IMG/VR virus record: IMGVR_UViG_3300033155_001273
Span: 1 to 34,273 of that record
DNA from: a virus
Length of the DNA stretch: 34,273 nucleotides
Direction: 5' to 3' (one strand)
The position numbers were made by a program, and so were the translations under genes. Under the pieces are notes generated by a model. The model had not been told where the DNA came from, made no database searches, and worked only from the letters and a program-made list of their open reading frames with translations. Within the stretch, counting starts at the first letter, position 1, and the number at the start of each line of letters is the position of its first letter. Below, piece by piece: positions 1-33,255 of the stretch.

Positions 1-3000
1 CCCTTCTGGAGCTCGTAGACGTCGCCGGTCGCGATCTTCTTCATAACGCCGGCAGCGGTCTCGGGGGTGATGCCCAACGACTCCGAGAATGCACGGGCGA
101 AATCGTAGATGGCTTTCAAGGCACGCTCGGCCACGGTCAGCTTCTTCTCGCCCTCGAAATGCTTCTCCGCAAGCTGTTGGTAGGCTTTAGCTGCTTTCTC
201 CTCGGTCCCGTACTCCTTGAGGATGGCCTGGCGCTGCTTCTCCTCCAGAACGTTGTGGAAGGCGAAGTGGAAGGACTCGTGGTAGAGGGTGTCTGGAGTC
301 GCGTGAGGCGCCACGAGGCTGATTATGTGGGCCCCGGTAGCCTCGTAGAAGGTGTAGCTGCCCTTGACTACAGCGGTGCCGGCGGCGAGGCGGGCCCTGA
401 CCTCATCAGGATCCATCTTGTAGGCTTTCGCCATTCGCTGAATGCTTGCCTCGCTGTGGACCTTCGGCGCGGTGAAGTTGACCTGGAGGACGGGTTGGCC
501 CTTACGTGTTACCTGGAAGCGGCCGGGCTTGGTTTGTCTGACGCCCCACCCCCTGAAGGTGCGTCGGATGTCCTGGACGGTTGGGAGCTTGGTTTCGGTT
601 GGTTTTTCTAGGGACTCCTGCCTGAAGTCTTTTGGGCGGGCCATTTGAGGCTTCGGCCCAAGCCCCATGTTGCCCTTGCCGGTCTTGCTGAGGAGAGCAA
701 CCGCATCATCGACGGTGGACAGATCAGTGAGAAGGCCACGTTCGATCGCTGATTCTCGAACCTGATCTGTGTGGACCTCGACACTCTTCGCTCGAGCCTT
801 TGTTCCAGACACAGGCGCGGCTGTGGGTTTCGGGGCACGGAAGTATGGAAGAATATCCCTGTTCTCATCCGGCACAAACCACTTGCCGGTTTTCGGGTGT
901 CGCTCGTAGACTTGAACCAGACCCTTCATCTCTTTTAAGAATTCGTATTGCCTCTCATGCTCCTCTCGTTCGGCCTCGATGTTCTCGTTCGCGTACTCTG
1001 CCTGCGCTCGGGCCACTTCGATGCCGTAACGCATCCCGGCCTCGTTGATCGCAAAGCCGTCCGGGTCGATTCGTCCAGGCAGGACGCGGTAGGCGCCATC
1101 GACCTTCTCGACGACACCGAGCTTCACAAACTCCTCGATCGCATCATTGACCCTGGCTATTCTGATGCCGGCCTTACCAAAGCCGGTCATCTCCATGAGC
1201 TTCTCCTGTACCTCGTCCCCTGTCAGTAATTTACCTTCATTTTGGGTGAGTACGGCAGCTACGGCCTTGGGGTACTCTGAGGTGTTTTTGGTTTGCTGGA
1301 TGCGTGATGCCTGTTTGGGCTTGAAGGTAATAGCAGGGGCGGCTTCACCCGTAACGGGGGCAATGGGTGCCGGGACCGCTCCTGCCGGTTCTATCCCGGC
1401 TTGTCCTTCTTCCTCCTTCGCAGCGATACGGTCAATCTCTGCCTCTTCACCCACCGGCACCGGAGCCCCAATCTCGTCGAGGTCGGCCTGTGTGGGCTGT
1501 ACCGGCTGTTCTATCCCCCCGGGCGCCACAAGGCCCTCTAACGGCGCGGAAGGTTGGGCCTCAGTAGCGGGCACGGCGCCCTCTGGAGCGGCAGGGAGCG
1601 GCCCAGGCTCCTCGATGGGCACCATTCCAGGCTCTACGGCGGCCTCGTCCTCCGGCAAGACACTCAAATCCTCCTGGTCTGGCTGTTCCATGCCACCAGA
1701 GAGGAAGGTTTCGGCCTCTTCTGCCGCTTGCTCGAGCTGCACGATCGCATCCTCGAGTGTCACATCGGCGCGGCCCTCGATAATCCGCTCAAGGTCGATC
1801 TCCTGGCCCTGGGCCCATGCGAGGCGGTCGTTGCCCTCGAGCCACAGAGGGGCGGCATTCCAGCGGGCGTTGTTGCGGACCTCTGGAGGAATGGTGGGTC
1901 CTTCCGGCCCCCCTGCCGGCGGGAGGAGATCTTCGCCAACAGGTGCCGCAGGACCGGATGGACCCTCAATCGGTGCTACGCCTTGTTCTATCGGCGGCAT
2001 TGGCTCGAATTCAGGTACGGCAAGGGGTTGATCGCCGGGGACTCCCTCGGCCTGTTGGATGTTGCCGGGGCCGGCGCCGCCCATGATCCCACCAATGAGG
2101 GCCCCTTGAATCATCGACTCAATCACCTGGGAGATGTTTTGCTCTATGCCCTCTGGAGTCAGCCAGCTTACCTTCTCGAGCTCGCCCTTCTCTGCATGGG
2201 CTATGTCGACCGCGGTTTGCTCAACGAGTGTTTGGATCCCCTCGGTTCCGGCCTCCTCGAGCGCCTGGCGGCCACCGGACATTACACGCGCAACGAGCGC
2301 CTTCTTGAACGTGTCGCGGACGATAGGCACCCTCTTGAGGAGGTTAGCGATAGGCATGGCCTCGAGTGCGCCGGCCATTACGCCGTAGGTGGCCGCAATG
2401 ATGTCCGCTTCCGGGCCCTCGAATCCGGCACGGGCCAGGTCCTCAGAGATAGAGCCGGTTTCCAGGCCAGCGCCGGCAGCAAAGACAAGCCCCGTACCTA
2501 TCCCACCAGCTACCGCAGCTGTGCCGGCGCCACCGACGCCAGCCAGGGCAGCGGCTCCAGCGATACCGCCAGGCAGCAGGCCAGCCCCGACGATCGAGCC
2601 CATGATCGGGGTCTGTGTCCCGAGGGCCTGTGCGACGTACATGGTGAAGTCGTCCCACCCGTGGACATCGCCAAACTCACCGACCCTCGGGGGCGGAGCC
2701 ATGAGCTCGGAGCCCACAGAGAGATCCGTAGCCATCTCACGGGCCGCATCCCCAACCTCGGTGCCTTTATTTGCGAGGTAGCCGCCGGTCTTGGTTTGGA
2801 AGAGTGGATTTGTGTAGCCGATTCCGGTCGCGCCAGCCACAGTTGGAGAGTTTGCCAGGAACCCGGCGCCGTTCTCTATAGCGATGCCCGCCGCCCTGGT
2901 AAAGAACGCAGCGGTCTTCGAATTCGATCGCTCGAGGGCCCGGCCGTACTCAGCTACCGTGGTAGCGGCCTTCTGTGTCGGGAGGTTTGACGCTACCCCG

Positions 3001-3389
3001 GCGATAACGCCGACCTTCTCCAGCGCATCCCAAATGTCGGTGCCACTCCTAACAAACGGCGAATCCCAATGGCTCTCCGTCTCCTGCTCGTTTGCCTCGT
3101 CGTCCCCAGTAATCAGCTCACGGAGAGTGCGGCGCTCGGGGGGAGCAATCTGATCCCAGTAGGCGCCGGTGCTCCTGGCTTCCTCATTGAAGCGCCTCTG
3201 TCGCTCGATCCTCGGCAGGGCGAGAAACTCAGGGTCGTCGCGGAGGTTGTGGAGGCGGGTCCTCTGGTTCATGGCCTCGAACCCGCCGAATTTTTCGTAG
3301 TCATTCAGCAGGTTTTCGATGTACAGCCTAGAGGTGCCATCCGGGAAGGCTACGACCTCTCCGCCGGGGAATCGGAGCCGGAGGGTCAT
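1..3389 (-). CDS. Giant multidomain polyvalent-type virion protein with HESFH metallopeptidase motif (3' end beyond window)
   Basis: The frame is open for 1129 codons and runs off the left edge. The ATG at 3389 overlaps the TGA of the preceding gene (ATGA). In order I see: a charged N-terminus; a Gly/Ala-rich, helix-prone hydrophobic region at about residues 250-350 that could be membrane-active; a Pro/Glu-rich linker at about 455-690 interrupted by a folded-looking stretch at 500-565; a winged-helix-like segment at about 700-775; charged helices; and HESFH at 1037-1041, an HExxH zinc-protease signature preceded by strands as in zincin-like domains. Giant proteins mixing proteases and other enzymatic domains at the end of podovirus structural operons are usually packaged and injected with the DNA. 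The role as an ejected effector is inferred; the protease motif and domain order are seen. More domains are likely beyond the window. Confidence 0.8.
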   Translation of the reverse strand, partial: MTLRLRFPGGEVVAFPDGTSRLYIENLLNDYEKFGGFEAMNQRTRLHNLRDDPEFLALPRIERQRRFNEEARSTGAYWDQIAPPERRTLRELITGDDEANEQETESHWDSPFVRSGTDIWDALEKVGVIAGVASNLPTQKAATTVAEYGRALERSNSKTAAFFTRAAGIAIENGAGFLANSPTVAGATGIGYTNPLFQTKTGGYLANKGTEVGDAAREMATDLSVGSELMAPPPRVGEFGDVHGWDDFTMYVAQALGTQTPIMGSIVGAGLLPGGIAGAAALAGVGGAGTAAVAGGIGTGLVFAAGAGLETGSISEDLARAGFEGPEADIIAATYGVMAGALEAMPIANLLKRVPIVRDTFKKALVARVMSGGRQALEEAGTEGIQTLVEQTAVDIAHAEKGELEKVSWLTPEGIEQNISQVIESMIQGALIGGIMGGAGPGNIQQAEGVPGDQPLAVPEFEPMPPIEQGVAPIEGPSGPAAPVGEDLLPPAGGPEGPTIPPEVRNNARWNAAPLWLEGNDRLAWAQGQEIDLERIIEGRADVTLEDAIVQLEQAAEEAETFLSGGMEQPDQEDLSVLPEDEAAVEPGMVPIEEPGPLPAAPEGAVPATEAQPSAPLEGLVAPGGIEQPVQPTQADLDEIGAPVPVGEEAEIDRIAAKEEEGQAGIEPAGAVPAPIAPVTGEAAPAITFKPKQASRIQQTKNTSEYPKAVAAVLTQNEGKLLTGDEVQEKLMEMTGFGKAGIRIARVNDAIEEFVKLGVVEKVDGAYRVLPGRIDPDGFAINEAGMRYGIEVARAQAEYANENIEAEREEHERQYEFLKEMKGLVQVYERHPKTGKWFVPDENRDILPYFRAPKPTAAPVSGTKARAKSVEVHTDQVRESAIERGLLTDLSTVDDAVALLSKTGKGNMGLGPKPQMARPKDFRQESLEKPTETKLPTVQDIRRTFRGWGVRQTKPGRFQVTRKGQPVLQVNFTAPKVHSEASIQRMAKAYKMDPDEVRARLAAGTAVVKGSYTFYEATGAHIISLVAPHATPDTLYHESFHFAFHNVLEEKQRQAILKEYGTEEKAAKAYQQLAEKHFEGEKKLTVAERALKAIYDFARAFSESLGITPETAAGVMKKIATGDVYELQK

Positions 3390-4285
3390 TGGCGCCTGGC
3401 CGGATTAATCTGTCCGTCTCCACCCACGGCGTACTCATTCGCATCTTGGATTTCAGATCCAGTAAATATATCAAAAGCCTGCCCTTTAAGTCGGCCCTCT
3501 CTGGCACGGGCAAGATACTCAAGATATTGGGTTATGTGAGGCCCAAGCCTCGTCTTAGCAAGATCAGACACCTCACTGTCTATAAATTTTTGAACGATAG
3601 CGTCCCAGTTGTTGCCCTTAAATTCTGTCTCCAGTTCCGGCCAAAACTGGACAACCTCAGTCATTACTTTTGCAGCAAGAGTACTCGCCTTCTCTTCTTG
3701 CCCCATCGCAAATTTATCCCATTGCGCCTTTCCTGTTGCCGTCATGTTGCCCCTGGCGCTGGCACGAACGGACTGTTCGAGAATCGGATCTGTTGGGATA
3801 CCGCCGGCCTGGGCCGTCATTCGGTCTGCGGAAGTCATCGCTGGTTTCGGAGCGATCATCATGGGATCTTTGCCGGGAACCGACATGGTGCCACCGGCCT
3901 CTATCCCGCGTCCTGTCATCAGCGTGTCAGACTTCTTGAGCCGATCCATAGCGATCTTGTGTTCCTCGTCCTCTTTCATCTGTTGCATGATGAGCTTCGC
4001 CGCGGCCTGGTCCTCACCGGAGACGCCCGCACGCCTCGAGGGGCCGTAGTGAGTGAATCTGCCACCTGGGGAGATCGACCGCTCACGACGATGGCGCGGG
4101 GTCATCAGGAAGTCGTAGAGGTCCTGGAGAGTGCTGCCCCGCGGCTCCTCTGACGGGTCCGGGCCCAGGCCGGACATATCGAGCTCTCGCGGTCCGCCGG
4201 GGACATTTGGAGGCATTGGCGGAGGACCATAGCCCCCAGTCTCGTAACCGCGCATGAGGATGTCGAGCATTTGTGGGTCAATCAT
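3386..4285 (-). CDS. Hypothetical internal virion-like protein (299 aa)
   Basis: I do not recognise this family. The N-terminus (to about residue 60) is rich in Gly, Pro and Met; residues 90-290 look helical and charged, with a hydrophobic stretch around 200-220 (KVMTEVVQFWPELE). There is no signal peptide and no clear membrane helix. It sits between another Gly/Met-rich gene and the giant protein, overlapping the latter by four bases, so the two are probably translationally coupled. Position suggests an internal core or ejection protein, by analogy with the T7 gp14-gp16 region, but no residue-level similarity supports that directly. Confidence 0.7.
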   Translation of the reverse strand: MIDPQMLDILMRGYETGGYGPPPMPPNVPGGPRELDMSGLGPDPSEEPRGSTLQDLYDFLMTPRHRRERSISPGGRFTHYGPSRRAGVSGEDQAAAKLIMQQMKEDEEHKIAMDRLKKSDTLMTGRGIEAGGTMSVPGKDPMMIAPKPAMTSADRMTAQAGGIPTDPILEQSVRASARGNMTATGKAQWDKFAMGQEEKASTLAAKVMTEVVQFWPELETEFKGNNWDAIVQKFIDSEVSDLAKTRLGPHITQYLEYLARAREGRLKGQAFDIFTGSEIQDANEYAVGGDGQINPARRQ

Positions 4286-4295: not shown

Positions 4296-5153
4296 TCACC
4301 GAGCGTAGAGCATCATCAGTTTGTTGCGGTTGGCGGCATTGATGGACTCTTGATCCATCTCTTGATCGTATCGGTATCTGTCGTAGTCGGTGCCGGCATC
4401 GAACCCGCCCCATCCGTGTTCCTGTTTGGCGCCCCACGCTCCGTACCGCCGACGCTCAGAATCCTCGAAGGCACGCAGCTCAAGCTCCGCGGCCTTCATC
4501 CTGCGATCGGCGTCGGCCTGTGCAGCTTGGAAATCGTACTGGTGTTGGAGAGCCGCGAAGTCACGGTCACGACCACGCTCAGACTCTCCCAGGGTGCCCA
4601 TGTAGCCACCGCCGAGCCCGCCGCCGGATGACAGCATCCCCAGGCCACCAAACTTCCGGGCTGCATCAGCCATCTCGCCGCCCATACGCTCGTCCAGGTA
4701 GGCTCCAGTAGCCGCTACCACCGCCCGCGTATCGACATTGGCGCCCGTGTTGCCCACGCCGCCCCATGAGCCGCCTTCCCAGTCTTCCCACCCAGGGATG
4801 TCCCGCATGTCTGGGATACCTGGCAACGTACCGGCCTCGGCGTCTCTACGGGCCTTCATCAGCCAGCCGGGGGTGTTGTTCACATGGGCCCCCTGCGGCG
4901 TGTGGGTTTTGCCAGTTGGAGCCATGGGCTTGACCCAACCATTCCCCGCCCCGGTCCCATACCCGATGTTCAAAGCGCCCTGGGCAGGGGATGCGCTGTT
5001 TGGGGTTGAGCGTCCCCCTGACGGCCGGAGGTAGGTTCCGGTTCCGGGCCCGGTTCCGCCGTAGGACGGGTTGGACATTCCGGGCCCAAAGCGTCCCCCG
5101 GTCCCGCCCCGGTATCTATTCGGATCCTGCGCGTATGGTGTGTCGTAAGGCAT
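4296..5153 (-). CDS. Gly-rich hypothetical virion protein (285 aa)
   Basis: Unrecognised. The first 100 residues are low complexity, dominated by Gly, Pro, Ser, Thr and Tyr, and look disordered. A second Gly-rich patch lies at about residues 170-190 (GLGMLSSGGGLGGGYMG), followed by a long charged helix with many Glu, Arg and Ala (about 190-240), probably a coiled coil. The C-terminus is Asp/Tyr-rich. The alternation of flexible glycine segments and a helical rod is common in phage internal or ejection proteins. The gene is spaced 10 bases before the next one and 3 bases after the previous one, so it is part of one transcription unit. Confidence 0.7.
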   Translation of the reverse strand: MPYDTPYAQDPNRYRGGTGGRFGPGMSNPSYGGTGPGTGTYLRPSGGRSTPNSASPAQGALNIGYGTGAGNGWVKPMAPTGKTHTPQGAHVNNTPGWLMKARRDAEAGTLPGIPDMRDIPGWEDWEGGSWGGVGNTGANVDTRAVVAATGAYLDERMGGEMADAARKFGGLGMLSSGGGLGGGYMGTLGESERGRDRDFAALQHQYDFQAAQADADRRMKAAELELRAFEDSERRRYGAWGAKQEHGWGGFDAGTDYDRYRYDQEMDQESINAANRNKLMMLYAR

Positions 5154-5156
5154 TTT

Positions 5157-5804
5157 CTATCTCCCACCCATGTACCGCATGCGTTCACGGCCACTCATGC
5201 CGCGCTTGGCGCGATTGCCAGCCATGAATTCTTTTCTATCGACTCTTTGAGGCAGGCCGAGCAGCCCTCGCTGATACTCCGCCCATTCTTTCGCCTTTTC
5301 CCGAAGTGCCTGTAGCTCCTGGGAGTTCATAAAGTTTGAGGCGGGCCCCCACGACCCGAAGCCTTGCTCCACAAAATTGATGTGCTGTTCGACGCCAGGA
5401 TACTTCGAGAGGGCGTAGGTGCCCTCCGGCTCATCCTCTCGTCTCTTGCGGGTGTAGCCGAGCTCCATCCCAAGCCTGGCATCATTCGCCATCGAGTTCG
5501 CCATCTTCTGCCGGCGCTCATAGTTCCCAGGCATGTCGTACTCACTGGTGCTCCAGGGGGCCTTTTCAGCCGGTGGGTTGCCGATGTAGCCGGTAAACCC
5601 CTCCGCGAATGGATCACGCTGGATGGTGAATTCCGAAAGGGACCTCATCTGGCCGAGAAGCTCTCGTTCGGCGGTCTGGAGCTGCTCCCGCGCTCGCGCC
5701 GGGTCCATGCCGGCCTTCACGAGCTTTTCTTGAGCCCCTGCGCTCTTGATGGCATCCAGCATGGACATCATGTTTTCCATCTCGGGGGTCATGCCAACAG
5801 GCAT
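5157..5804 (-). CDS. Helical hypothetical virion protein (215 aa)
   Basis: Unrecognised. The N-terminus is Met-rich (MTPEMENMMSMLDAIK) and probably amphipathic; residues 25-60 look like a charged helix. The rest is polar and basic, ending in a Gly/Arg/Met-rich tail (MSGRERMRYMGGR) that could touch DNA. No membrane segment, signal peptide or catalytic motif is visible. It starts one base after the stop of the upstream gene and belongs to the run of four small genes that precede the giant protein, which is the only hint of a virion-internal role. Confidence 0.68.
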   Translation of the reverse strand: MPVGMTPEMENMMSMLDAIKSAGAQEKLVKAGMDPARAREQLQTAERELLGQMRSLSEFTIQRDPFAEGFTGYIGNPPAEKAPWSTSEYDMPGNYERRQKMANSMANDARLGMELGYTRKRREDEPEGTYALSKYPGVEQHINFVEQGFGSWGPASNFMNSQELQALREKAKEWAEYQRGLLGLPQRVDRKEFMAGNRAKRGMSGRERMRYMGGR

Positions 5805-5805
5805 T

Positions 5806-6261
5806 TTAGCCTCCAGACATCAGCGCATCGAGTATCGCGGGGTCGAAGCCGCCCCCTCCGCCGCCGGAGCTGCGATTCCCCATTGTCGGTCCGCGCCTGA
5901 AGCCCCGCTGTTTGGGCTTGTATGTTTCGGGGTGAAGCCCCCTGTTGCTCTGTCGCCACTTCTCGGTTTCCTCGCGCTTCTTCGCCCAATGATCCTGGAC
6001 CTCCTGTTGCCAGGGGGCATAGACGTTCTGGCGCCACGCGGGGTCATCGTAGGTTTGCTGGTTGATCCAGTCCCCCTTTACGAGATACTCCCACTCCCCA
6101 GGGCTGGTGCCGTGGCGCGACTGTGGTTTGAGAGCGTCACGGACGGCCCGTTGCCAGTCGCCCTCGCTCCAGTCACCCCGCATTTCCTTCTTCTCGCGTT
6201 CCAGCCTTTGCCGATTTTGCGTGTACGCTCCGAGCCACACCGGGGGATTTTCGATTGGCAT
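5806..6261 (-). CDS. Hypothetical Trp-rich small virion protein (151 aa)
   Basis: Unrecognised. The protein is strongly polar and unusually rich in Trp and Arg, with repeated W-containing helical segments (for example DWSEGDWQRAVRDALK and DPAWRQNVYAPWQQEVQDHW). It ends in a glycine run followed by FDPAILDALMSGG. The C-terminal motif DPAILDALMSGG resembles the start of the 299-residue protein two genes further on (DPQMLDILMRGY), which may mark a shared short helix in this cassette. It begins one base after the upstream stop. Probably an internal or minor structural protein; function unknown. Confidence 0.68.
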   Translation of the reverse strand: MPIENPPVWLGAYTQNRQRLEREKKEMRGDWSEGDWQRAVRDALKPQSRHGTSPGEWEYLVKGDWINQQTYDDPAWRQNVYAPWQQEVQDHWAKKREETEKWRQSNRGLHPETYKPKQRGFRRGPTMGNRSSGGGGGGFDPAILDALMSGG

Positions 6262-6262
6262 A

Positions 6263-8737
6263 TCAACCTCCGCTGTCTTTCTTCATTTCTTTCCCTGTGG
6301 GCAGATAGCCCAATTCGAGACCCGTAATCTTCGCTCCGGTCGCATCTACCGTACCATGTGGAATTATAAGCACTTGAAGCATAATTTGGTCGAATCCCCT
6401 ACCGAGTCCGAAGATGAGCTTCCCGTCGCCCCACTCGCCGCCTTCCGGCATGGCCTGGGCAGGAACGTAGGTCCCGGCGGCCACCTGTGGCGGATACCAG
6501 TCGAGTTCCACATCAAAGGAGGTGTTGACGACGGTGATTCGATGCGCTCCATACTCAGTAAAGATATAGTCTCCGACCCTTCCGCGCACGAATGGGCGCA
6601 CCGGGCCGGGGTTAACGTAAATCTTTTCGGTATCATCCAGGTCATCATCGATCTCGATTTGGCTGTCGCCGGTCTTGGTGTAGTCAAGCGGGGTACGGAC
6701 TTGGGAGATGTCCTCGACGTAGAAATCGCACTGGTCAACGAGCCAGGGAAGATCAAAAGTGGCCCCTCCGGTTTGTGGCCCGAGGGCAATGTAGCGGCTC
6801 CAGGCGGTCTCGGTCCCCGTCACGCTCGAGGTGCCAACCGAAACGGACCCCACCTGATCGGTGTCAGTCTGCCAGTCGTCATCGGACTCTTCTCTGATGC
6901 GGACGGCAATATCCGGCCTCACGGTGGAGTCAGGATCCGCCCAGGTCCGCACCATAACCTCGTTCATGTCGCCCCGGATGCCTAGCGTCTGGAGGCGGAA
7001 TGAGCCGGTTTGAAGGTCCCCGCGGTAGTGGATGACCTCTCCAGAGGACGGTTCATCCTTGCCGGTGATCGCGCCGGCCAGGTCGAGGTTCACTGTCACG
7101 AGCTCGGCCGCGGCGCCGGAGACCCTCGCGTACCCGGCATGGATCCCGTCGTGGAGGCCGTCGATGATGAAGGCCGACCGTGGCTCATACGCCTCACCGT
7201 CGATCTCCACTTCCGGCAGCACGAGCTCCGTGATGCCCCCGGTGGAGTCGTTGACGAGCCACACGGTCCAGGGAGACTTCTGCCGGAAGATGAACAGAAC
7301 TTGGTAGGTTGGGTCGAATTGGAGCCATACCGACTCAGCCGAAGCGTCCCAGTCCTCGAACTGGCTCAAATCGAACAGGCTCTCGAGGCGTGAAACCCCA
7401 ACCGACATGGCGGTGTAGATCAGGCCATCGTCAGAGACCACGTAGCCCACCCCATTGAACGAGGCCAGGTTCGAGACCGGCTTGATGCCCTCGCCGTAGT
7501 CGTCGTGGTACATCCAAGGCGCCTGAGTCGAACCGGCGTCGGTGAGGAGGGTAAGCTGGTCTGTCTCGGCAATCAGGATGCCGCTATTAATCGAGGTCAT
7601 GTCGAGCAGGGAGCCGGTGCCTGGGAGATCGACGAAGAACCATCCAACACTCTCGAAGTCGTCGATGCTGCCCGGAGCTGCGTTCATTATCCGGCGCGGG
7701 TAGGGGTTCCAGAGGCCATTCGTGATGTTCCCTTCCGCATCCTCGTCGCCCTCGAACCACATGCACCCCCCGTAGACCATGTAGGCGCCAAACTGGGCAA
7801 AGCATTGGGCCCTGTACCTGTCAGAGATCGGCTGGAATGGGTTGAATGCTGGACGGCCGGCCCCGGTCACTGAGTAGCCGATGAGGAAGTCGTTCCCCAA
7901 GGTCACGAAGCGATCATCCCCGTAGCCAATGTCGGTGAACACCGCATCGTCGATGCCGGTTTGCTGCGCGAGCCAGGTCACACCGTCAGTTGAGGTTATG
8001 GTTTGGGCATCGCTGCCGACTGCCACCAGGAGACCGCCGCTGTAGGTGATGCTCTGGTAGTCGGAGACTGTCGGGGAGGTCCGTACCGAGTAGGAATCCC
8101 CATCGTCATCCGTGAAGAGAATTGTGGAATCGTCCCCGACGATGTAGAACCCGCCTGGGCCATAAACAACATCTCGGAGGGTTCCGCTTGCGGAGGCGCT
8201 TTTGCCATCCCATGACGCCCCATCGTCGGTGGAGACATAGACATTGGCAGGAGAGCCTCCCACGGCCATCAGCGTGCCGCTGTGATTGTGAATGGCACGA
8301 CCACCCCCGGCTGCGCTGAACGACCAAGTTAAGCCGTTGTCTGTGGTTCTGGTGGTGCCATTCACACAAACAGCACACCATATTTCAGAGGCGGCATAGG
8401 CTATCCCGTAGTGATGTTCGGTCCAGACATCCCCAACATAAATAGCCCCTTCGCGGAAATCCCACGAGACGCCATCTACGGATGAGGCAAAGACCCCTCC
8501 GGCGCAACAGGCCATGAACATATCCGGGCTGCGGGCGACATCCAGGAACTTTAGGTATCCGCCGCCGCTCGCCATCTCGAAGGTGTAGACCTGGAATCCC
8601 TCTTCCAGCTCTTGCCCGGTCGAGTAGAGGATCGTTCCAACGTCTCCAACGATGACGGCCACCGCAGGGCTGATGACCTCATCCCAGGCAATCGCCTCTA
8701 AATCAGGACTGGTGAGAGCGGCATCTAGGAAGCTCAC
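6263..8737 (-). CDS. Large tail (nozzle-like) protein with Asp-box repeats (824 aa)
   Basis: The N-terminal third carries repeated Asp-box (BNR-type) turns: SVDGVSW near residue 86, TDNGLTW near 131, STDDGASW near 168 and STDGVTW near 247. Each sits at the end of a short hydrophobic strand group, as in beta-propellers of sialidases and photosystem assembly factors. The C-terminal 500 residues are beta-rich without such repeats and end in a conserved-looking stretch (GKLIFGLGRGFDQIMLQV) with a short basic tail. The start overlaps the preceding gene's stop by four bases. Size, place after another large beta protein and before the internal-protein cassette suggest a tail nozzle or tubular protein B type role (T7 gp12 is itself a propeller). 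The Asp boxes are seen; the role is inferred. Confidence 0.75.
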   Translation of the reverse strand: MSFLDAALTSPDLEAIAWDEVISPAVAVIVGDVGTILYSTGQELEEGFQVYTFEMASGGGYLKFLDVARSPDMFMACCAGGVFASSVDGVSWDFREGAIYVGDVWTEHHYGIAYAASEIWCAVCVNGTTRTTDNGLTWSFSAAGGGRAIHNHSGTLMAVGGSPANVYVSTDDGASWDGKSASASGTLRDVVYGPGGFYIVGDDSTILFTDDDGDSYSVRTSPTVSDYQSITYSGGLLVAVGSDAQTITSTDGVTWLAQQTGIDDAVFTDIGYGDDRFVTLGNDFLIGYSVTGAGRPAFNPFQPISDRYRAQCFAQFGAYMVYGGCMWFEGDEDAEGNITNGLWNPYPRRIMNAAPGSIDDFESVGWFFVDLPGTGSLLDMTSINSGILIAETDQLTLLTDAGSTQAPWMYHDDYGEGIKPVSNLASFNGVGYVVSDDGLIYTAMSVGVSRLESLFDLSQFEDWDASAESVWLQFDPTYQVLFIFRQKSPWTVWLVNDSTGGITELVLPEVEIDGEAYEPRSAFIIDGLHDGIHAGYARVSGAAAELVTVNLDLAGAITGKDEPSSGEVIHYRGDLQTGSFRLQTLGIRGDMNEVMVRTWADPDSTVRPDIAVRIREESDDDWQTDTDQVGSVSVGTSSVTGTETAWSRYIALGPQTGGATFDLPWLVDQCDFYVEDISQVRTPLDYTKTGDSQIEIDDDLDDTEKIYVNPGPVRPFVRGRVGDYIFTEYGAHRITVVNTSFDVELDWYPPQVAAGTYVPAQAMPEGGEWGDGKLIFGLGRGFDQIMLQVLIIPHGTVDATGAKITGLELGYLPTGKEMKKDSGG

Positions 8738-11676
8738 TCTGTCACCTCCTCAACATATACGTCGATCTCGTAGGCGCCTAGCTTCCAAACCATGTTCTTC
8801 AGCCCGTGCTGATTTGTGCCCACAAACGCAAAGAAATCCGTTCCATCAGAACAAATTGGCAGGAAGTTGGACTCATAGGGGCCGGTTACATAGTGACCAA
8901 AATAATAACCGGATCCGGTCGGGGCAGGCGTCAAAAACTGCGGGTCCTCCCAATCATAAGAATTAACATTCGTTGACCATGTTCGTCCACCATCAGTCGA
9001 GGTTATGAACCCGGTCCTTTTGTTAGCCGAATAAGGGCTGCTGGCATATATGATCCTACAAACATAAGTTGGATGAACCGTATCAGCATCAACAACTGCT
9101 ATTGAGTTCGCACCATGTTTCCAGTACCCGGAAGCGTCGAATTCACCATCAAACGACCGCCTGGTGGAAACCCCAAGGTGATTATCAGAAGGTCCGTATT
9201 CCACATAAGTAATGAGCCAGTCGGTGTTTCTCGATGCCCCGAAGGAATGAGCCTTGTATTTGGAGCCCGCGATAGAGGCAAAGATTGGCGGTGTATACGG
9301 CCGGAGCTGGTCAGGAGGAAAGTCCTGGAGAAATGCGTTTGCTGGTTTGGTGTCCCATTCCGCCCATGCGTTGAAGCCTCCGGCGCCTCCGCTGGAGCCG
9401 GTGTAGTAGATTTTCGCGCTTTGGGCAGAAATGGTAATATCGTATTCATCGCCAAGATTGCTGCTAGTACCAATCGCCCAAAGGGTTGAGGTTGTTGGGA
9501 ATGTCATCGGGCTCCAAGTGAGTCCGTCCGATGCAGACTTGAGAACCGTTCCCTCTTTGCCAATAGCCAGGTATTCCCTCTTGGTAACTCCATCCCCGTC
9601 GTTGATAACGGCAATGAGATCAACCGTGACGCCGCTCGATGGGGTAGTCCAGGTGACGCCGCTATCAGCAGAATGCCAAATGATGCCACCAAGACCAACG
9701 GCAACGATGCTGTTCCCGTCCTTGGGCTCAAACGCTACTGAGGTCAGGGTGCTGGCCGGCGGATTGCCTCCGATTTGCCTCTCCGTCCAGTTGCCAGTCG
9801 CCGCATCTGGAGAAGTCCACACCCTGTTCCCAACGGCAATAAATTGGCTACCGTCATGTTGAGCATCGCAAATGAAATCTGACAAATCCCCAAAATCTGC
9901 ATAGCTCGTGGCGCCGGCCTCGATCCTAACGCGCCGCCTAATCTTCCAAACCTTCCCGTTATCCATCAGGGCGTAGAAGCATCCATCCATCGCGTTGTAG
10001 GAGAGGTCAACAAACCCGCCGGCGCCGTGCCACGTATATTTGTATTCCCAGGTGATGCCGTCGAGCGAGAAGTAGGCTCTTGTTTTGGTGTAGTCTACTC
10101 CGTCTACCTCTTCTACATACGAATCGCCAACAGCGCAGCAACACCGGCCCTCGTCGTCCCATGCAACAGCGTGGAGATCAACCGTAATGGCGGGGTCGAG
10201 GATGTCACAAGGCACCCAGTCGATCCCATTATTGTCTGATGTCACGCAGGCCCCGCCGGTTCCAACAGCAACCCATAAGTCGTGATATGGACTGTACGAA
10301 ACCGAAGCCAGCGACTCGGTTGTGTTGCTTGTTCTCTTGGTGATCGAGGTTGGATTTGTGAAGGTGAGAATAACGCCGTCGCCGCCCTCCGCGTCACCAA
10401 CGACAACGTAGTAGTGAGTCCCGCCTTCGACCTTCTGTGCAACGGCCATACTCCGCAGGGTAACGAGTGTATTGGTTGTGTAGATCGTGCCATTTTCGTC
10501 CCCAACAAGCCCACCCGCTCCACAGTAAAGCCAGGTACTAGGGGCCGCGGTTCTAGGCACCATAGAATATAGGGCCACTTCACCAAGCGGTGAGTCCTTT
10601 TCAAGATAATTCGACGCCCAATTGTGATTGTAGGTTTCAAACGACCCACCCTCTGTTAGTGGAGGAGGGATTCTGTATTTTCCATCGGACCTAATGTGTT
10701 CACCCTGAAGCGTTAAAATATGTTTACTCGTTGAGAGCAGGCCAGCATCATAGGCTTTTGTAAAAGATATATCCTTGTTAGATGGGAGCGGGATTCCGTA
10801 GAGACCTTCACTACCAAACACGTTTCGAGAGAAGGCCGCACCTTCCTTGCCGGTAACGCAGATCGGCCAGAACGTTTCCTTGACGTCATCGAAGAAATCA
10901 TACCGGAGCTCCCCGCCTGCCGAAATCGACGTGACTTCGATAGGCTCCCGTTCCGGCGCCTCAGTCTCCGCCTCATACCATGCGCCAAGATTCGTGCGAC
11001 TGATGTTGGAGTAGAACGGGCCCGAAATGAGCCTCTCGTCAATCGGCTGATCCATGTTCACCGTGCCGTAGACAAGCCAGCCTCCCAGGGACTCAATCCT
11101 GATCGGCCATATTGCACGATCGGCAGGATGGACTCTGAGGATCTCGTAGGGTTCATCGGTGAGGGCCGGCATGATCTCGTCGGTGAGGATGTGGTTGTCA
11201 TCGACCACCTTCTTGATCGTGTAGAGGTCGTTACCGTCCCCCGGCTCACGGATCAGGCACCCAGGCCACACCTCTTGCAGCCAGGCGGTGTTCTCGCCGT
11301 CGCTCTCCACTTCGGCCTTGACCCCATCGGTCGTAATCGTGCCGTCCTTGTAGACGGAGTAGAGAGGCGCAACGACGCTGGAGACCCAGGTGAAGGGGGC
11401 CCACCGGCCGAACCAGATGGTGTGCCCTGAGCGGCTCACGTAGAAGGCGGAGTTCAGGTAGTCCTCGAGGTCAGACCCGGTGAGGTCCGCGGCCCATGAT
11501 GCCATGCCAGCGTAGGCGGCCCGCCAGTTAGAGCGGAGGCTGATCGCGTTGTCGCTACGGGCGATGTAGAGGTTCTCGAGCTCGGTCATCCCCGGCGGGT
11601 CGATCTGTGTCGAGTGGGCCCGCAGGACCTTGGTGGCGCCTGAGAGGGGGATCGCCTTGTATTTCTTGTTTGCCAT
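8734..11676 (-). CDS. Large tail protein, nozzle-like N-terminus with Asp-box repeats (980 aa)
   Basis: The N-terminus (KYKAIPLSGATKVLRAHSTQ, then MTELENLYIARSDNAISLRS) looks like the start of podoviral tail-nozzle proteins, where an assigned list of parameters or coordinates is laid out on the tail. Asp-box turns follow: NNGIDW near residue 478, SLDGITW near 537, SADSGVTW near 667, SASDGLTW near 714 and STDGGRTW near 892, so the C-terminal half is probably a propeller-like fold. The ATG directly follows the TAA of the upstream gene, and a GGAGGA site lies just upstream. Its stop overlaps the start of the 824-residue protein, which carries the same repeats. It could instead be a fibre or a glycan-binding tail component. 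Confidence 0.75.
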   Translation of the reverse strand: MANKKYKAIPLSGATKVLRAHSTQIDPPGMTELENLYIARSDNAISLRSNWRAAYAGMASWAADLTGSDLEDYLNSAFYVSRSGHTIWFGRWAPFTWVSSVVAPLYSVYKDGTITTDGVKAEVESDGENTAWLQEVWPGCLIREPGDGNDLYTIKKVVDDNHILTDEIMPALTDEPYEILRVHPADRAIWPIRIESLGGWLVYGTVNMDQPIDERLISGPFYSNISRTNLGAWYEAETEAPEREPIEVTSISAGGELRYDFFDDVKETFWPICVTGKEGAAFSRNVFGSEGLYGIPLPSNKDISFTKAYDAGLLSTSKHILTLQGEHIRSDGKYRIPPPLTEGGSFETYNHNWASNYLEKDSPLGEVALYSMVPRTAAPSTWLYCGAGGLVGDENGTIYTTNTLVTLRSMAVAQKVEGGTHYYVVVGDAEGGDGVILTFTNPTSITKRTSNTTESLASVSYSPYHDLWVAVGTGGACVTSDNNGIDWVPCDILDPAITVDLHAVAWDDEGRCCCAVGDSYVEEVDGVDYTKTRAYFSLDGITWEYKYTWHGAGGFVDLSYNAMDGCFYALMDNGKVWKIRRRVRIEAGATSYADFGDLSDFICDAQHDGSQFIAVGNRVWTSPDAATGNWTERQIGGNPPASTLTSVAFEPKDGNSIVAVGLGGIIWHSADSGVTWTTPSSGVTVDLIAVINDGDGVTKREYLAIGKEGTVLKSASDGLTWSPMTFPTTSTLWAIGTSSNLGDEYDITISAQSAKIYYTGSSGGAGGFNAWAEWDTKPANAFLQDFPPDQLRPYTPPIFASIAGSKYKAHSFGASRNTDWLITYVEYGPSDNHLGVSTRRSFDGEFDASGYWKHGANSIAVVDADTVHPTYVCRIIYASSPYSANKRTGFITSTDGGRTWSTNVNSYDWEDPQFLTPAPTGSGYYFGHYVTGPYESNFLPICSDGTDFFAFVGTNQHGLKNMVWKLGAYEIDVYVEEVTE

Positions 11677-20223: not shown

Positions 20224-21842
20224 ATACTTTGCCAGTCCCAGGCGGGTTTACGGTCAGCCTTGGTATTGGTTGCCCCGACAATTGGGTTAAAGCCAGCAAG
20301 CTCCATCGTGCCGAGCGTGGCGTCAACATCGGCCCCGGCACCAGACGCACTCACGGTTGGATTGTGCCCCTGGAGAACCATCGTACCAAGTGTTGGGTTT
20401 ACCTTGATCTCGTTCAGCACATCGTAGATGTACGCGCCCATTTCCCACAGGCCGGTAGCGGTGCCTACGGTTGGGTTGAAACCAGCAAGAACCATAGCTC
20501 CGACTGGGTCTTGCTCCACCTCTGTTGGGCCGGTATCTAACCCGCCAATCCAATCAGTGTTATCAAGCTCAATATCATCAAAGTAAAGCTCAGATGTCGC
20601 ACCCGGAACAGCGGAGCCACTAGCACTCGCGCCGCACCGAAGCGTGTCACACAAGGCCGCTGATTGTGCCCCGGTGTAATCACTACCGACTGAGGTTCCG
20701 TTTACTTTGAGTTCGCCGCCGCCGTCTGAACCAGACCCGGCCTGCCAATGAAATTCAATAAGCATCCAGGTATCAAGAGCCGGGTCTTCAGCACACACGC
20801 CATCTAAGATCGTGGTGTTTCCAGACCCGTTCCAGTAAATACAACGCCACCTAAAGGCTTGGTCGTCTGCTTGCACCCTCAAATTAAGTTCCATGAGGGA
20901 TTGGGTATCGTCTTTTATTTCAAATACCTTGCATGATTGATAATCTGTAGGCACATTGAAGGCTGCATTCACCTTAAGGTAACCCCTAAAATACACCTCA
21001 TCCTGGTCAGCTACCGTCTTGTAAGCGTAAACACCATTGTTCGTACCATCAAACGTTATCTTCGCACCCTTGCTGCCGCTGTTGATGTGGGCAGGAGTCG
21101 AAGAAACGGTGAGAGTGTTTGACCCCTCCTCCACCTTAGATGTGAACTCAGTGGTAAAGGCATCGACTTCGGTCTCTATGCCGGATGCGAAAACCACACC
21201 TACTGGGCCTAGCCAGTCAGCATCGTCAGCACCAAAATTGTCAACGTCAAGGGTTGAGCTTCCAGACGTTGTTCCCTTGTAACATCCGGCATAAATCGTA
21301 TCGTGAGTCTTCGATACCGATGTCATCGTGACATTGTTTGAATCCCATACCAAAACTCCCGAGTCGTTATAAACCCTGGCTCTTATGGTGTCGTCGCCCG
21401 TGCCACCATTGTTGTGCGAGTAAAGCTCAAACCGGTAGTATCCACTTGGTTTTGTGGCATAGCTGCTTGTTGATGATGTGTAGCCACCATAGCCAAATTG
21501 TACCCTCCACGCCCAGTCCCCGCTTCCATCCACTATGGCCCTGAGTTGAGCTCCTTCATCATACGCAGTTTCACCAGCAGCCAAAATCGTTAACCCGCTT
21601 GAGTTCGGCAAATCAAGGCTAGAAACATCTATGTATGCACGAGCATAGATTGTTAATTCAGCCGAGATGTCCTTGTACACGCAGGCTTGATCGTTTGTCC
21701 CGCCTAATGTGCAGCGTGCCCCGTACGTCCCTGTGTGTGGCGCAGAACTGGATGCCGCTACGGAATTGCCGGATTCAGTCAGCGAACCAGTTACGTCAGT
21801 GAGATCGCCTTCTTCAAAGTCGGCTTCAAATATGTTTGCCAT
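20208..21842 (-). CDS. Tail fibre/spike protein with two LamG-like modules and C-terminal repeats (544 aa)
   Basis: The start at 21842 overlaps the upstream stop (TGATG). Residues 1-215 form one module starting FEADFEEGDLTDVTGS and ending ADWLGPVGV, with NNGGTGDDTIRARVYNDSG in the middle. Residues 225-435 form a second, related module ending LDNTDWIGG. Both have the jelly-roll look of LamG/concanavalin-type carbohydrate-binding domains: strands with YFRGYLKV and a D-x-G-x loop. The C-terminal 110 residues carry three copies of a short motif (GAMVLAGFNPTV, GTMVLQGHNPTV and GTMELAGFNPIV). A role in binding host surface glycans is inferred. It follows two tailspike genes, consistent with a receptor-binding island. 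Confidence 0.72.
   Translation of the reverse strand: MANIFEADFEEGDLTDVTGSLTESGNSVAASSSAPHTGTYGARCTLGGTNDQACVYKDISAELTIYARAYIDVSSLDLPNSSGLTILAAGETAYDEGAQLRAIVDGSGDWAWRVQFGYGGYTSSTSSYATKPSGYYRFELYSHNNGGTGDDTIRARVYNDSGVLVWDSNNVTMTSVSKTHDTIYAGCYKGTTSGSSTLDVDNFGADDADWLGPVGVVFASGIETEVDAFTTEFTSKVEEGSNTLTVSSTPAHINSGSKGAKITFDGTNNGVYAYKTVADQDEVYFRGYLKVNAAFNVPTDYQSCKVFEIKDDTQSLMELNLRVQADDQAFRWRCIYWNGSGNTTILDGVCAEDPALDTWMLIEFHWQAGSGSDGGGELKVNGTSVGSDYTGAQSAALCDTLRCGASASGSAVPGATSELYFDDIELDNTDWIGGLDTGPTEVEQDPVGAMVLAGFNPTVGTATGLWEMGAYIYDVLNEIKVNPTLGTMVLQGHNPTVSASGAGADVDATLGTMELAGFNPIVGATNTKADRKPAWDWQSIWRKW
20274..20510 (-). repeat. Three-copy protein repeat, GxMxLxGxNPxV type
   Basis: The C-terminus of the 544-residue protein contains three copies of the motif GAMVLAGFNPTV, GTMVLQGHNPTV and GTMELAGFNPIV, separated by about 20-40 residues. 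The copies are close in protein sequence and in DNA. Similar G-x-L-x-L-x-G-x-x-P-T-V repeats occur in other phage tail proteins; the role is not known to me. Confidence 0.6.
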
Positions 21843-29706: not shown

Positions 29707-31585
29707 CGTCGATGACTCTTGCTTGGAGCTGTTGGATGATGTTCGTGAGTTGGGCGATGGTTTGCGCCATAGCCTCGCCAGCCATTTTGGAACCCTCGAT
29801 GTCGAGCTCATTCTTAACCTCCTGCATATCGAACTCCGCGAGGAATTCGTTGAGGACGAGATCATACACATCAAGGAAGTTTCCGGCGAGGGCAGCAAGT
29901 GGCCCGCCCTCAACAGCCACCGATCCCATCTCCGCCGCACCGTTGAAGATTTCCGGTAGCTTGTCGACCATTGCCAGGATCTCTTGTTTCTTGATCGCCT
30001 TGGACATGGTTTGCGAGTTGACCTTGGTCTCGATGATGATTTGGTCTTTCCAGTATCCCGGCGGGAACTCGATGGTCATGGCCTTCATCATCTCGCCAAG
30101 CTCCTCGTCCTGGGCGTCGATGAAGATTTGCATGGACTGGGGATTGAACTGGCGGTAGCGCGAGTATTGCATCTGGACGATGCGGGCGAGGAACTCCCGG
30201 TAGCGGGTCATCATCTCGAACAGGGGTTGCATGGCCCGCTCGAGGATGGCGCTGGTTCCGGTCGCGGTCGGCCGTTCCGCGAGCTCCTGGCCGAAGAAGG
30301 CCGGCGGGATAGAGGCGGCATCGTGCATGTGCTTGACGATGCGCTCGAGCAGGTTGAGGAGGAAGCCAACATCGCCGGAGGCCAGGCGGACCTCCATGAT
30401 CCCTTTGCGGAGATCGTCGATCATCGCATCCTCAACTTCGGCCAGGCCGGGGCCGAGTTCCCCGTTATCGAGGAAGTTGGAGAGTTTGAGGCGCTTGAGG
30501 GCGATGAGGAGCGGGTTGATCGCTCGCACGCCAGCGTCGAGGAGGATGTTCATAATCGCCACGTATGCGCGGTGGAGCTGATCCAGCACGGAGCAGAGCG
30601 ATTTGCCGTCCATTGAGGCGAGGGTTGGGTGCCAGGCGAAGGTTGAGTACGGGCGGGGGAAGTCCTGGTAGAAGGGGCCATGCGCTGCCAGCCACGTTTT
30701 CTGTTTCAGGTCGAGGATGATGACGACCTCTTCGCCGTCGTAGACGGTGTAGGTCTCCATGAGGGAGACCTCCGAGAGTTCGGTCTTGTTCGCCTTGGGC
30801 TCAATCCCGTGGGCAGCATGGATCTCTTCCTTGGCGAGTTCGGCATCGGCATCCTCGCGGGCCTCACCGATCGACATAGGATCCAGGTCTTTGCGGTAGT
30901 AGTCCTTGTCCTGTTCGATCTTGATTTTCCCCGGCGTACTCTCGAACCGCTCACAGAACCACCTTGCCTCATCGACCGATGCGGAGGGGATGGGGTGATA
31001 GATCCGGCGGGTATCGACAACGTAGGGGAAGCACCCCTCGTCCTCGATAATGGTTTTGGTTTGTTCAACGTCCTCGCCCATCTCATCGACATCCCAGTAC
31101 CGGATTTTTCGCTCACGGAAGGACCAGGCGGTTTTGACGACGGACTTGGTGAAGATTTGGGCGCCGCGGATCGAGTCGTTAACGACGGCCTCGTATTTCG
31201 AGCGATCGGCCATCCAGTCGATGAGGACATCGTGCGCGGAGGCCATTTCGGTAAATCCAGGCCGGCCCTTGCCGACGAAGATTTGATCCTGGGCGAACAC
31301 TGGGTTGGAGATGTTCGACCCGGCGTGCCTGCAAATCTCGAACGTGATGGTGAAATCGAGTTGCGCGTCTTTGTCGCCGCGGGCCTTGGGATCTCCGGTG
31401 GCCCAGTAGTTTTCCTCGCAGGACGTCCATTCCGGCTCGAGGGTGTCCTTGCGGTTCTCCACCACCTCGTCGATCTCGTCACAGAGGGCGACAACGAAGG
31501 CATCGAACGCCTCATCTTCTCCGAGCTTCTTGACTAAGTGGGTTATTTCGTAGGTTTGCGGGGGTTTCCGTGTGGCTTGAGTCAT
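29609..31585 (-). CDS. Portal protein (658 aa)
   Basis: The size, position directly after the large terminase, and sequence suggest a podovirus-type portal. A crown/wing region with helices opens the protein (VVALCDEIDEVVENRKDTLE); then PYSTFAWHPTLASMDGKSLC and DQLHRAYVAIMNILLDAGVR match the clip/stem region of large portals; then HMHDAASIPPAFFGQELAER and ATGTSAILERAMQPLFEMMT; and a C-terminal helical, Gln-rich tail with Pro at the end. Twelve copies would form the ring through which DNA enters and leaves. The start overlaps the terminase stop (ATGA). Confident in role, unsure of the subfamily. Confidence 0.82.
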   Translation of the reverse strand: MTQATRKPPQTYEITHLVKKLGEDEAFDAFVVALCDEIDEVVENRKDTLEPEWTSCEENYWATGDPKARGDKDAQLDFTITFEICRHAGSNISNPVFAQDQIFVGKGRPGFTEMASAHDVLIDWMADRSKYEAVVNDSIRGAQIFTKSVVKTAWSFRERKIRYWDVDEMGEDVEQTKTIIEDEGCFPYVVDTRRIYHPIPSASVDEARWFCERFESTPGKIKIEQDKDYYRKDLDPMSIGEAREDADAELAKEEIHAAHGIEPKANKTELSEVSLMETYTVYDGEEVVIILDLKQKTWLAAHGPFYQDFPRPYSTFAWHPTLASMDGKSLCSVLDQLHRAYVAIMNILLDAGVRAINPLLIALKRLKLSNFLDNGELGPGLAEVEDAMIDDLRKGIMEVRLASGDVGFLLNLLERIVKHMHDAASIPPAFFGQELAERPTATGTSAILERAMQPLFEMMTRYREFLARIVQMQYSRYRQFNPQSMQIFIDAQDEELGEMMKAMTIEFPPGYWKDQIIIETKVNSQTMSKAIKKQEILAMVDKLPEIFNGAAEMGSVAVEGGPLAALAGNFLDVYDLVLNEFLAEFDMQEVKNELDIEGSKMAGEAMAQTIAQLTNIIQQLQARVIDDESQLVDIGGQVSDVPPAGMEPDGDQPPQASA

Positions 31586-33255
31586 CGTCTACCCCCACCT
31601 CTCACCAGTCCATAACGGACGGGCATTGGATGAACATTGGTTCCGTATTCGTCATCGCTCTCATCTCGAATATGGGTCGTGGAGTAGCGTTTGTCATCCT
31701 CTGCGTAGATCCACCAGTCAACGTGCATTGGCATGGTGTCCGCCAGCGCAGGGCTGTCTCCCATGATTGTTCCATCTGGTGCGATGTTGAGGTTGACCAG
31801 ATGGGATACAACTTCTTCATGATCAGGGTATAGCACAAAAACCTGATGATCCGCAACGTAGGGATGGAATCTGTCGAGCAAGCGCCTGCCCTTGCTCTGC
31901 CCTCCTGGGGTAAACGGTTCGATTCTGATGTAGATGCTCCGCTTGACCATTTCCTGCTTCAGCCAGGCGCCAACCCACACTTGCATGGCGCCGGCCTCGG
32001 GGATGAGCAAGCGGGCATCCCACTTGATCCCCATGTCGAGGAGGGCGGTGATTTGCGCCATCGGGTTTGGGTGTTCCTCGCGCCAGTAGTCGAGCAGGCA
32101 CCCGAAGCGCATTGACGGCAGCCACCAGAACGCGGTGATACCGGAATCGTTGGAGTCTTTATTGAGTCCGCCGGTCGGATCCATCGCCACGGTAACGAAG
32201 CCGAGCGATGCTGGGTAAGCCACGCCGTCGATGTAGATGGCTTGCAGTTTGCCGTTAGAGTCATGTGATCTGGTGTAGGGCAGGAAGTCCTCACGCCGGA
32301 AGCGCCGGATCCCCTCGTCGAGAAGGACGTTGAGCATCTGGTGAGCGAACTTGTAGGATCCCATTTGCCGGAGGGTTTTCTTGAGTCCCTCCATTGTTCG
32401 CCGCTCGGGGAAGATGGGTTGCCCCTCCTGCCACACGAGCTCGCGGTTGGGCTCCAGCACGCTCTCGTTGATGTACTCCTCGTTATCGGTTGGGAGTTTC
32501 AGGCCGAGGGAATCGAGGAAGTTATACCACTGGTCGTTGCAGTAGCATCCGAGAACCATCTTGCAGTAGTCGGGGCTCTTGAGGAGCTGTTCATAGTAGC
32601 CCTTCTCGCCGCCGGGCCAGAGGGTGCCGATGATGAGGAGGATGGAGTTTTCATCCTCGAACAGCGGGTCCAGGGTCTCAAGGAACTCGACGGCGCCGAC
32701 CATCTCCGCGGCTGAGTTGGCGGCTTTGTTGTCCACACCGTCGTCGACGATGATGATGTCGTAGTGCCCGCCGACGATACCGGACTTGACGCCGGCCAGG
32801 GTGACGGATGCCTCGGGGCTCTCGATGGTGCGCGTGACGGAGAATTCCGTAGCGGTCCAGACGTTGCGCCTGGCATCCGGTGGTGGGACAAGGCCGGGGA
32901 AGTAGAGGCGCATGGCGCGGCCCTGGAGGATGTGTTTGATCTTCCGGCCCTTCTTCTTCGCCTCGTCCAAGTTGTGCATACACATCAAGATACGTTTGTT
33001 TGGGTCGTTGATTAGGATGTGGACGATGTAGGCGATGTTGAGGAGCGAGGTCTTGAAGTGACCTCGAGGGACCATGCAGAGGAACCAGCGGTTTCCTTCG
33101 TCGAGCCCCTTTTGGAACCACATCGCCATAGCGAAGTGCAGCACGAGGGAGAGCTTGTGGAATTCGCAGAGATACCAGGCGGTCCAGAAGATGCTTTTCC
33201 GACACTTTGCTTGGATTTTCTTGATGTCAATGGGCGCTTCTTCGGCGCCTGGCAT
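31582..33255 (-). CDS. terL: Terminase large subunit (557 aa)
   Basis: The ATPase half shows a variant Walker A, VPRGHFKTS at residues 62-70, and Walker B DIIIVDDGVD at 166-175, followed by IIGTLWPGG at about 208-216, the coupling motif. The nuclease half has VAMDP (Asp359), LLIPE (Glu420) and GDSPALADTM (Asp500, Asp506), which fit an RNase H-like metal site, and RFHPYVADHQVFVL, typical of the region before the last acids. It pumps DNA into the procapsid and cuts it. The small terminase candidate overlaps upstream by one base, the portal follows with a four-base overlap. Length is normal. Confidence 0.9.
   Translation of the reverse strand: MPGAEEAPIDIKKIQAKCRKSIFWTAWYLCEFHKLSLVLHFAMAMWFQKGLDEGNRWFLCMVPRGHFKTSLLNIAYIVHILINDPNKRILMCMHNLDEAKKKGRKIKHILQGRAMRLYFPGLVPPPDARRNVWTATEFSVTRTIESPEASVTLAGVKSGIVGGHYDIIIVDDGVDNKAANSAAEMVGAVEFLETLDPLFEDENSILLIIGTLWPGGEKGYYEQLLKSPDYCKMVLGCYCNDQWYNFLDSLGLKLPTDNEEYINESVLEPNRELVWQEGQPIFPERRTMEGLKKTLRQMGSYKFAHQMLNVLLDEGIRRFRREDFLPYTRSHDSNGKLQAIYIDGVAYPASLGFVTVAMDPTGGLNKDSNDSGITAFWWLPSMRFGCLLDYWREEHPNPMAQITALLDMGIKWDARLLIPEAGAMQVWVGAWLKQEMVKRSIYIRIEPFTPGGQSKGRRLLDRFHPYVADHQVFVLYPDHEEVVSHLVNLNIAPDGTIMGDSPALADTMPMHVDWWIYAEDDKRYSTTHIRDESDDEYGTNVHPMPVRYGLVRGGGRR

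Follow-up and report, generated by a model that had tools for sequence, protein, structure and literature searches.

The window, 34,273 nucleotides of DNA from the virus record IMGVR_UViG_3300033155_001273, contains at one end the first part of a giant gene, whose open reading frame (ORF) is still open at the window end (Table 1). The first-pass annotation of this DNA described the product as a phage protein of more than 1129 visible residues that runs on beyond the window, with a Gly/Ala-rich membrane-like segment, a long Pro/Glu linker and an HESFH protease motif. These observations are correct in every particular that could be checked. The window aligns in three blocks (100%, 99.98% and 99.93% identity) to the 53,539-base record IMGVR_UViG_3300033143_002559, which is the same virus. 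Extension of the contig through this longer record yielded the complete gene: the protein has 2,245 residues (L002:10001-16738), and the part outside the window, including the LPD38 domain, is encoded at L002:13388-16738. In single-sequence searches the half inside the window matched no phage record, and viral contigs gave only the same virus.

The C-terminal half points to a known class of proteins. Pfam recognizes LPD38 at residues 1941-2138 (E 6.1e-33; 114.9 bits at a curated cut-off of 27), and Iyer et al. place LPD38 among the domains restricted to phage-type polyvalent proteins (PMC5512222). Residues 1554-2221 match PHROGs that represent giant phage proteins without an assigned function (profiles of 2,793-3,925 positions), with a best E-value of 2.6e-94. 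With tblastn, 134 phage records match; identity stays below 60% throughout, and no match reaches a coverage of 80% of the protein. Among the matches listed, the starts lie at residue 1207 or later. A profile of the LPD38 half found nothing better than E 0.46 among PDB sequences. The protein exceeds 2,000 residues, carries LPD38 and a zincin-like domain and is encoded on the same strand as the terminase. These features place it among the phage-type large polyvalent proteins (LPPs), a class described in 2017, of which it is a new and rather small member. The presence of LPD38 near the C-terminus gives computational support to the earlier guess that a polyvalent protein is encoded here. The enzyme mix expected with it was not borne out: at E-values up to 1, Pfam recognizes no payload enzyme in the full protein, so that the zincin is the sole enzyme-type domain and several unrelated enzymatic domains, a common but non-obligatory theme of LPPs (PMC5512222), are not seen.

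According to Iyer et al. (2017), zincin-like metallopeptidases are the commonest domain of polyvalent proteins and are proposed to process the polyvalent polypeptide (PMC5512222). The HESFH motif lies exactly where the first-pass annotation had placed it. An HExxH arises in 1.5% of shuffles of the visible part and in 3.8% of full-length shuffles; the motif alone is therefore suggestive, and the claim is carried by the relatives and the model. The relatives comprise 79 further viral loci (80 of 221 were kept, one being the same contig) and 38 loci from bacterial genomes. As all were gathered via the LPD38 half, the counts do not extend to the frequency of zincins outside LPD38 proteins. Near-identical loci are present in these sets, and the 117 loci collapse to 89. 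An HExxH is found upstream of the LPD38 module in 52 of the 79 viral relatives, with 2.1 expected from shuffling of the same stretches, and in 49 of 81 non-redundant viral and bacterial loci (2.0 expected).

From 86 segments of relatives with HExxH, 24 of the HEW type were excluded, and 25 of the 50 non-redundant others were aligned with the giant protein (alignment A2). His, Glu and His of the motif are invariant by construction, because the segments were selected for HExxH. One further column is invariant, E1064, which is Glu in 26 of 26 rows (EEKAAKAY in the giant protein, EEAIAEAF-like in many relatives). This invariance is not by construction, yet the region is Glu-rich and the alignment can favor Glu. 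The AlphaFold2 model obtained with A2 has a mean predicted local distance difference test (pLDDT) score of 71 and a predicted template modeling (pTM) score of 0.60. HESFH is placed on helix 1032-1046 (pLDDT about 90) behind the strands 968-973, 1010-1015 and 1020-1026. E1064 is located on helix 1063-1075, after one intervening helix, as a predicted placement. The modeled domain agrees with the zincin core described by Iyer et al., in which variable inserts lie between two conserved helices (PMC5512222).

The best structural matches found with VIA-align are anthrax lethal factor (Z 5.3, 113 aligned residues, root-mean-square deviation 4.6) and ArdC (Z 5.0, 97 aligned, 4.5). The nine top PDB rows are chains of metallopeptidase type. 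In BFVD the model matches best a fragment taken from a long phage protein (E 2.2e-3); in these structure searches a match that is not listed is not thereby excluded. A narrow profile of one zincin subclass (16 sequences) finds the giant protein at E 0.15, barely above shuffles (0.32), and a wider profile (50 sequences) at E 0.005 with 0 of 200 shuffles near; part of both scores stems from the motif itself, because the profiles were built on HExxH segments. Searched against PDB sequences, the zincin profile lists designed helical proteins first (E 4e-4 and 0.004), followed by IrrE-type metallopeptidases (E 0.007 and 0.022). The region alone found nothing better than E 1 among phages. Relatives, model and third-ligand candidate identify residues 965-1125 as a zincin with high, though not complete, confidence, and the modeled HESFH is very probably the zincin site. 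The earlier reading, a zinc-protease signature behind strands as in zincins, is supported, and the modeled location of the motif on a helix rather than a loop, with E1064 as candidate third ligand, speaks in its favor.

Residues 250-350 contain 22 Gly and 24 Ala out of 101 residues, only 8 being charged. This composition and a run of 62 residues without Asp, Glu, Lys or Arg confirm the Gly/Ala region noted in the first pass, while the hydropathy is borderline (Kyte-Doolittle 19-residue peaks of 1.65 and 1.63). Residues 240-460 gave four weak blast matches among the relatives (best E 0.025). A profile of the surrounding module (N-module) was seeded from three blast-matched relatives, and the giant protein was never included. 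The profile grew to 70 of 121 relatives and finds the giant protein in later rounds with E-values from 3e-20 to 1e-13. At E 50, not one of 401 decoys was listed; these comprised 300 shuffles, 100 random Gly/Ala-rich sequences and the protein in reverse. Among the 82 relatives whose 5' end is closed and in which at least 400 residues precede the LPD38 module, 60 have the N-module. Pfam assigned four families to N-modules, each in 1 of 54 members and two of them Gly-zippers; the N-module of the giant protein matched no Pfam family.

The model of the N-module is all-helical but weak (pLDDT 61, pTM 0.45) and good only for about residues 300-440. Structure comparison was uninformative (Z 5.0 or less), and hydropathy-based membrane prediction is not decisive for this module. 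Weak matches were found in BFVD (best E 0.019), several of them with names ending in _1, a suffix taken to denote the initial piece of a long protein. Piece 1 of A0A1X9HW54 weakly matches the N-module and piece 3 weakly matches the zincin model. A fragment of the type VI secretion system toxin Tse5, found with the N-module profile among PDB sequences (E 4.6e-4), was put down to Gly/Ala composition. The linker that follows contains 39 Pro, 38 Ala, 37 Glu and 27 Gly in 250 residues and is probably disordered.

The N-module profile matches residues 143-473 of the virion RNA polymerase (vRNAP) of phage N4 with 33.5 bits (E 2.2e-10). Because the bias term is large (33 bits), composition was tested by local shuffling: 0 of 1,500 locally shuffled N4 copies (windows of 10, 20 or 40) reach this score, the best having 21.7. 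In a set of 176 proteins, made up of N4, T7 virion proteins, window ORFs and ORFs from 50 kb of E. coli K-12, the profile lists only the giant protein, N4 and, weakly, T7 gp16. Eight of nine N4-type vRNAP N-termini are found (E 1e-5 or better, Z 100), one of a Rhizobium phage being missed. Built from the nine N4-type sequences, the reverse profile has N-terminal matches in 5 of 121 relatives (E 5e-18 to 3e-9); the 174 controls and the 121 locally shuffled copies gave none. With N4 residues 1-906 as the only query, phmmer recovers the relatives L040 (E 8.5e-11) and L061 (E 2.8e-10). The polymerase part (1007-2101) matches none of 122 proteins at E 0.01, the giant protein included, in which Pfam also finds no RNA polymerase domain. 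In L061 and the relative L037, LPD38 occurs together with ADP-ribosyltransferase, ATPase or helicase/methylase domains; a polymerase is not listed for either.

A 2025 preprint divides N4 vRNAP into an N-terminal domain (NTD), a low-complexity linker of 100 residues, the polymerase, the HExxH domain C1 and the mostly helical C-terminal domain C2. The NTD has predicted membrane helices between residues 224 and 278, enters nanodiscs and is proposed to join an inner-membrane complex (PMC12633501). These helices fall within the stretch matched by the N-module profile. Via the LPP family profile, the N-module is homologous to the NTD of N4 vRNAP; its membrane role is a prediction. The role in DNA entry that had been suggested for the Gly/Ala segment thereby gains computational support. 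The order of parts is also the same as in N4 gp50 (Schitoviridae). The giant protein has the module at 166-467, the linker at 441-690, the zincin at 965-1125 and then about 1,120 residues with LPD38; in gp50 an N-terminal module, a low-complexity linker and an HExxH domain precede a C-terminal part of about 1,100 residues. Unlike gp50, the giant protein has no RNA polymerase. The HExxH domains are alike at a weak profile level only: the wider zincin profile matches C1 with E 0.004 (domain E 0.0018), ranking it first among 102 sequences, C1 is not found with the narrow profile, and phmmer with C1 and C2 gave no match at E 0.1.

Iyer et al. tied the N4 HExxH domain to lethal factor, and their account of a query with the N4 N-terminal region plus polymerase reports recovery of the polymerase module only, in related phages and prophages (PMC5512222). 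The N-module shared with N4 vRNAP may therefore be undescribed so far. No literature joining ejection with polyvalent proteins was found in a search that left most subscription papers outside its coverage. The surprising and interesting part of the protein is this anchor apparently shared with N4 vRNAP. T7 gp16 (L131) matches the N-module profile weakly at residues 295-419 (15.4 bits, E 1.4e-4 among the 176 proteins). None of 1,000 locally shuffled copies scores as high, and in gp16 the EG..E..Q motif is not conserved. This match is a lead rather than a claim and possibly indicates a wider reach of the anchor module.

The giant protein also resembles Burkholderia phage DC1 gp67, which has an LPD38 half at its C-terminus (25% identity in an alignment of the C-terminal halves) and an HExxH upstream of LPD38. 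The genes of DC1 gp67 and JC1 gp69 occupy a late-gene position like that of the giant gene and are followed by opposite-strand genes and the lysis module. With 2,245 residues the giant protein is about half the size of these proteins (4,650 and 4,515 residues, respectively), and Pfam recognizes in it none of the transglycosylase and helicase-type domains of JC1 gp69. The latter bears LPD38 and has Bcep22 gp75 as best match; among the proteins of purified JC1 virions it had the second-highest score, based on 51 unique peptides (PMC9144972). DarB of phage P1 is a giant protein located in the head and believed to pass into the cell (PMC9024508); it is likened to the giant protein by this description only, "DarB-like" being a mere label of relatives.

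Table 1. Positions of the giant gene, its parts and neighboring genes in the window.
Feature	Window position	Strand	Basis or remark
Giant gene, visible part (residues 1-1129)	3..3389	minus	ATG start at 3389; ORF open past window end
Gly/Ala-rich helical N-module (residues about 166-467)	1989..2894	minus	profile built without the giant protein
62-residue run without D/E/K/R (residues 248-309), candidate membrane-inserting hairpin	2463..2648	minus	composition
Pro/Ala/Glu/Gly-rich linker (residues 441-690)	1320..2069	minus	composition
Zincin-like domain (residues 965-1125)	15..497	minus	alignment A2, AlphaFold2 model, structure comparison
HESFH (residues 1037-1041): predicted zinc ligands H1037 and H1041, predicted catalytic E1038	267..281	minus	
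E1064, predicted third zinc ligand	198..200	minus	alignment A2 and model
299-residue protein gene, directly upstream of giant gene	3386..4285	minus	stop overlaps ATG of giant gene (ATGA)
Three small genes of unknown function (285, 215 and 151 residues)	4296..6261	minus	same direction as giant gene
Terminase large subunit	31582..33255	minus	phrog_38, E 6.5e-42

Given the position of the terminase gene, the giant gene lies at the far end of the late or virion block. On its 3' side the longest ORFs, of 291, 217 and 183 residues, are on the opposite strand, so it is probably the last gene of this block. For the 299-residue product encoded directly upstream, a search of the phage collection at E 1 gave no relative; by inference, it is possibly co-ejected or a virion protein.

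Several observations concern the surroundings. Beyond the giant gene, on the other strand, L004:2273-2734 and 2689-3129 encode a membrane protein and a protein with a lipobox-like start, a possible spanin pair; this would hint at a Gram-negative host. The neighboring 824- and 980-residue proteins (window 6263-8737 and 8734-11676) have sortilin-like matches below the cut-off (E 0.004 and 0.003) and are perhaps related tail or fiber proteins. A right-handed beta-helix protein at 21842-23575 (E 1.4e-16) is a tail-spike candidate. Window and longer record differ by about 120 bases near 14,815 (window 14812-14816) and about 50 bases near 27,396 (27396-27397), and the window ORF 12843-15056 begins in a frame other than that seen in the longer record; the differences may reflect variation between strains or an error of assembly. 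A 163-base near-repeat (96%) is present close to both ends of the longer contig (253-415 and 53377-53539), so that the contig, at about 53 kb, may represent almost the whole genome. A PHROG match at E 0.01 or better was obtained for only 5 of the 24 window proteins scanned. The terminase has matches in 63 phage records, none of them extending over 80% of its length; together these results indicate a little-known lineage.

The best explanation, with a probability of roughly two thirds, is an ejected entry protein composed of a membrane anchor, a disordered linker, a zincin and an LPD38 half, without a recognized payload enzyme. Such an LPP would be packed in the capsid and leave it with the DNA; virion location and delivery into the host are suggested by analogy with JC1 gp69 and N4 gp50. 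The N-module would then belong to the ejection channel and anchor the protein in the new host's inner membrane, a role also proposed for the N4 NTD; the Pro/Glu linker would tether the remainder. The zincin, presumably an active protease, would cut either the protein itself, freeing the C-terminal half, or a host protein. The C-terminal half (about 1207-2245) may serve a packaging or regulatory role. The computation supports the domain order, the zincin fold and ligands, the N-module homology and the late-gene position; packaging, ejection, membrane insertion and cleavage with its target are inferred. The interpretation offered in the first pass is thus partly supported, as far as sequence reaches. 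Of the two roles it left open, effector or entry machine, the entry machine fits better than an effector with an enzyme mix, because no payload enzyme is recognized.

Several points weigh against this explanation. Support for this phage is computational throughout. An HExxH within 300 residues of the LPD38 module, as in the giant protein, occurs in only 9 of the 81 non-redundant relatives (0.5 expected; 21 of 81 if HExxxH is counted too). The zincin has no Pfam match and no significant single-sequence match among the relatives (none at E 0.5), its model has no Foldseek match at E 0.001 or better in PDB or BFVD, and VIA-align Z-values of about 5 are middling by the tool's own note. The first-round E-value of the N-module profile for the giant protein (2e-9) is flattering, because the seeds were picked by their blast match to this protein. 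Model confidence is low over residues 248-309. In the relatives, 63 of 70 N-modules lack a hydropathy peak of at least 1.6, and their longest uncharged run has a median of 25 residues versus 23 in the (longer) rest of the protein. Furthermore, the reverse N4-type profile does not reach the giant protein itself, and N4 C2 and the LPD38 half have no detectable similarity, also when the LPD38-half profile is compared with N4.

Two alternatives overlap with the ejected entry protein and differ from it only in the role of the zincin, so the probabilities need not sum to one. The zincin might act on a host target in defense or antirestriction, the membrane module being a delivery part only. The R388 antirestriction protein ArdC is among the top structural matches (Z 5.0), Burkholderia relatives are named DarB-like (a label only), and polyvalent proteins have been proposed to counter host defense (PMC5512222). 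The helicase/methylase modules of some relatives were not found in the giant protein, and such an effector is rather unlikely. Slightly less probable still is a zincin retained for packing or regulation instead of catalysis. N4 C1 bears an HExxH, and the preprint's account of the N4 C-terminal domain presents it as autoinhibitory and names no proteolysis (PMC12633501); in the giant protein, though, His, Glu, His and the third Glu are all kept, and relatives with zincins that differ widely in other respects have HExxH as well.

The remaining two explanations depart further from an ejected entry protein. The location within the late block would suit a morphogenetic protease that processes head proteins during assembly and is not ejected, but this is improbable in view of the homology of the N-module to a domain of an ejected protein and the presence of a relative, JC1 gp69, in purified virions (PMC9144972). 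A chance HExxH in a repetitive protein, conceivable from the shuffling rates given above, is the least probable of all: the relatives bear the motif at about 25-fold the expected rate, and the helix placement and the third Glu argue against coincidence.

The wider question is how proteins of 2,000-5,000 residues exit the capsid and which role they play at the inner membrane. In a wider reading, which has about an even chance of being right, a mobile inner-membrane anchor, of which the N4 vRNAP NTD is one version, stands at the front of giant ejected proteins in many phages and is followed by quite different cargoes: a polymerase, an ADP-ribosyltransferase with ATPase, a helicase-methylase or, as here, little but a zincin. 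LPPs would then be inner-membrane parts of the ejection channel that carry enzymes, and the giant protein would be close to the bare chassis. As a small member with almost no cargo it would be a handy object for separating the anchor from the zincin. If its front end is the N4 vRNAP anchor, the results obtained with N4 would transfer to a large group of uncharacterized phage proteins.

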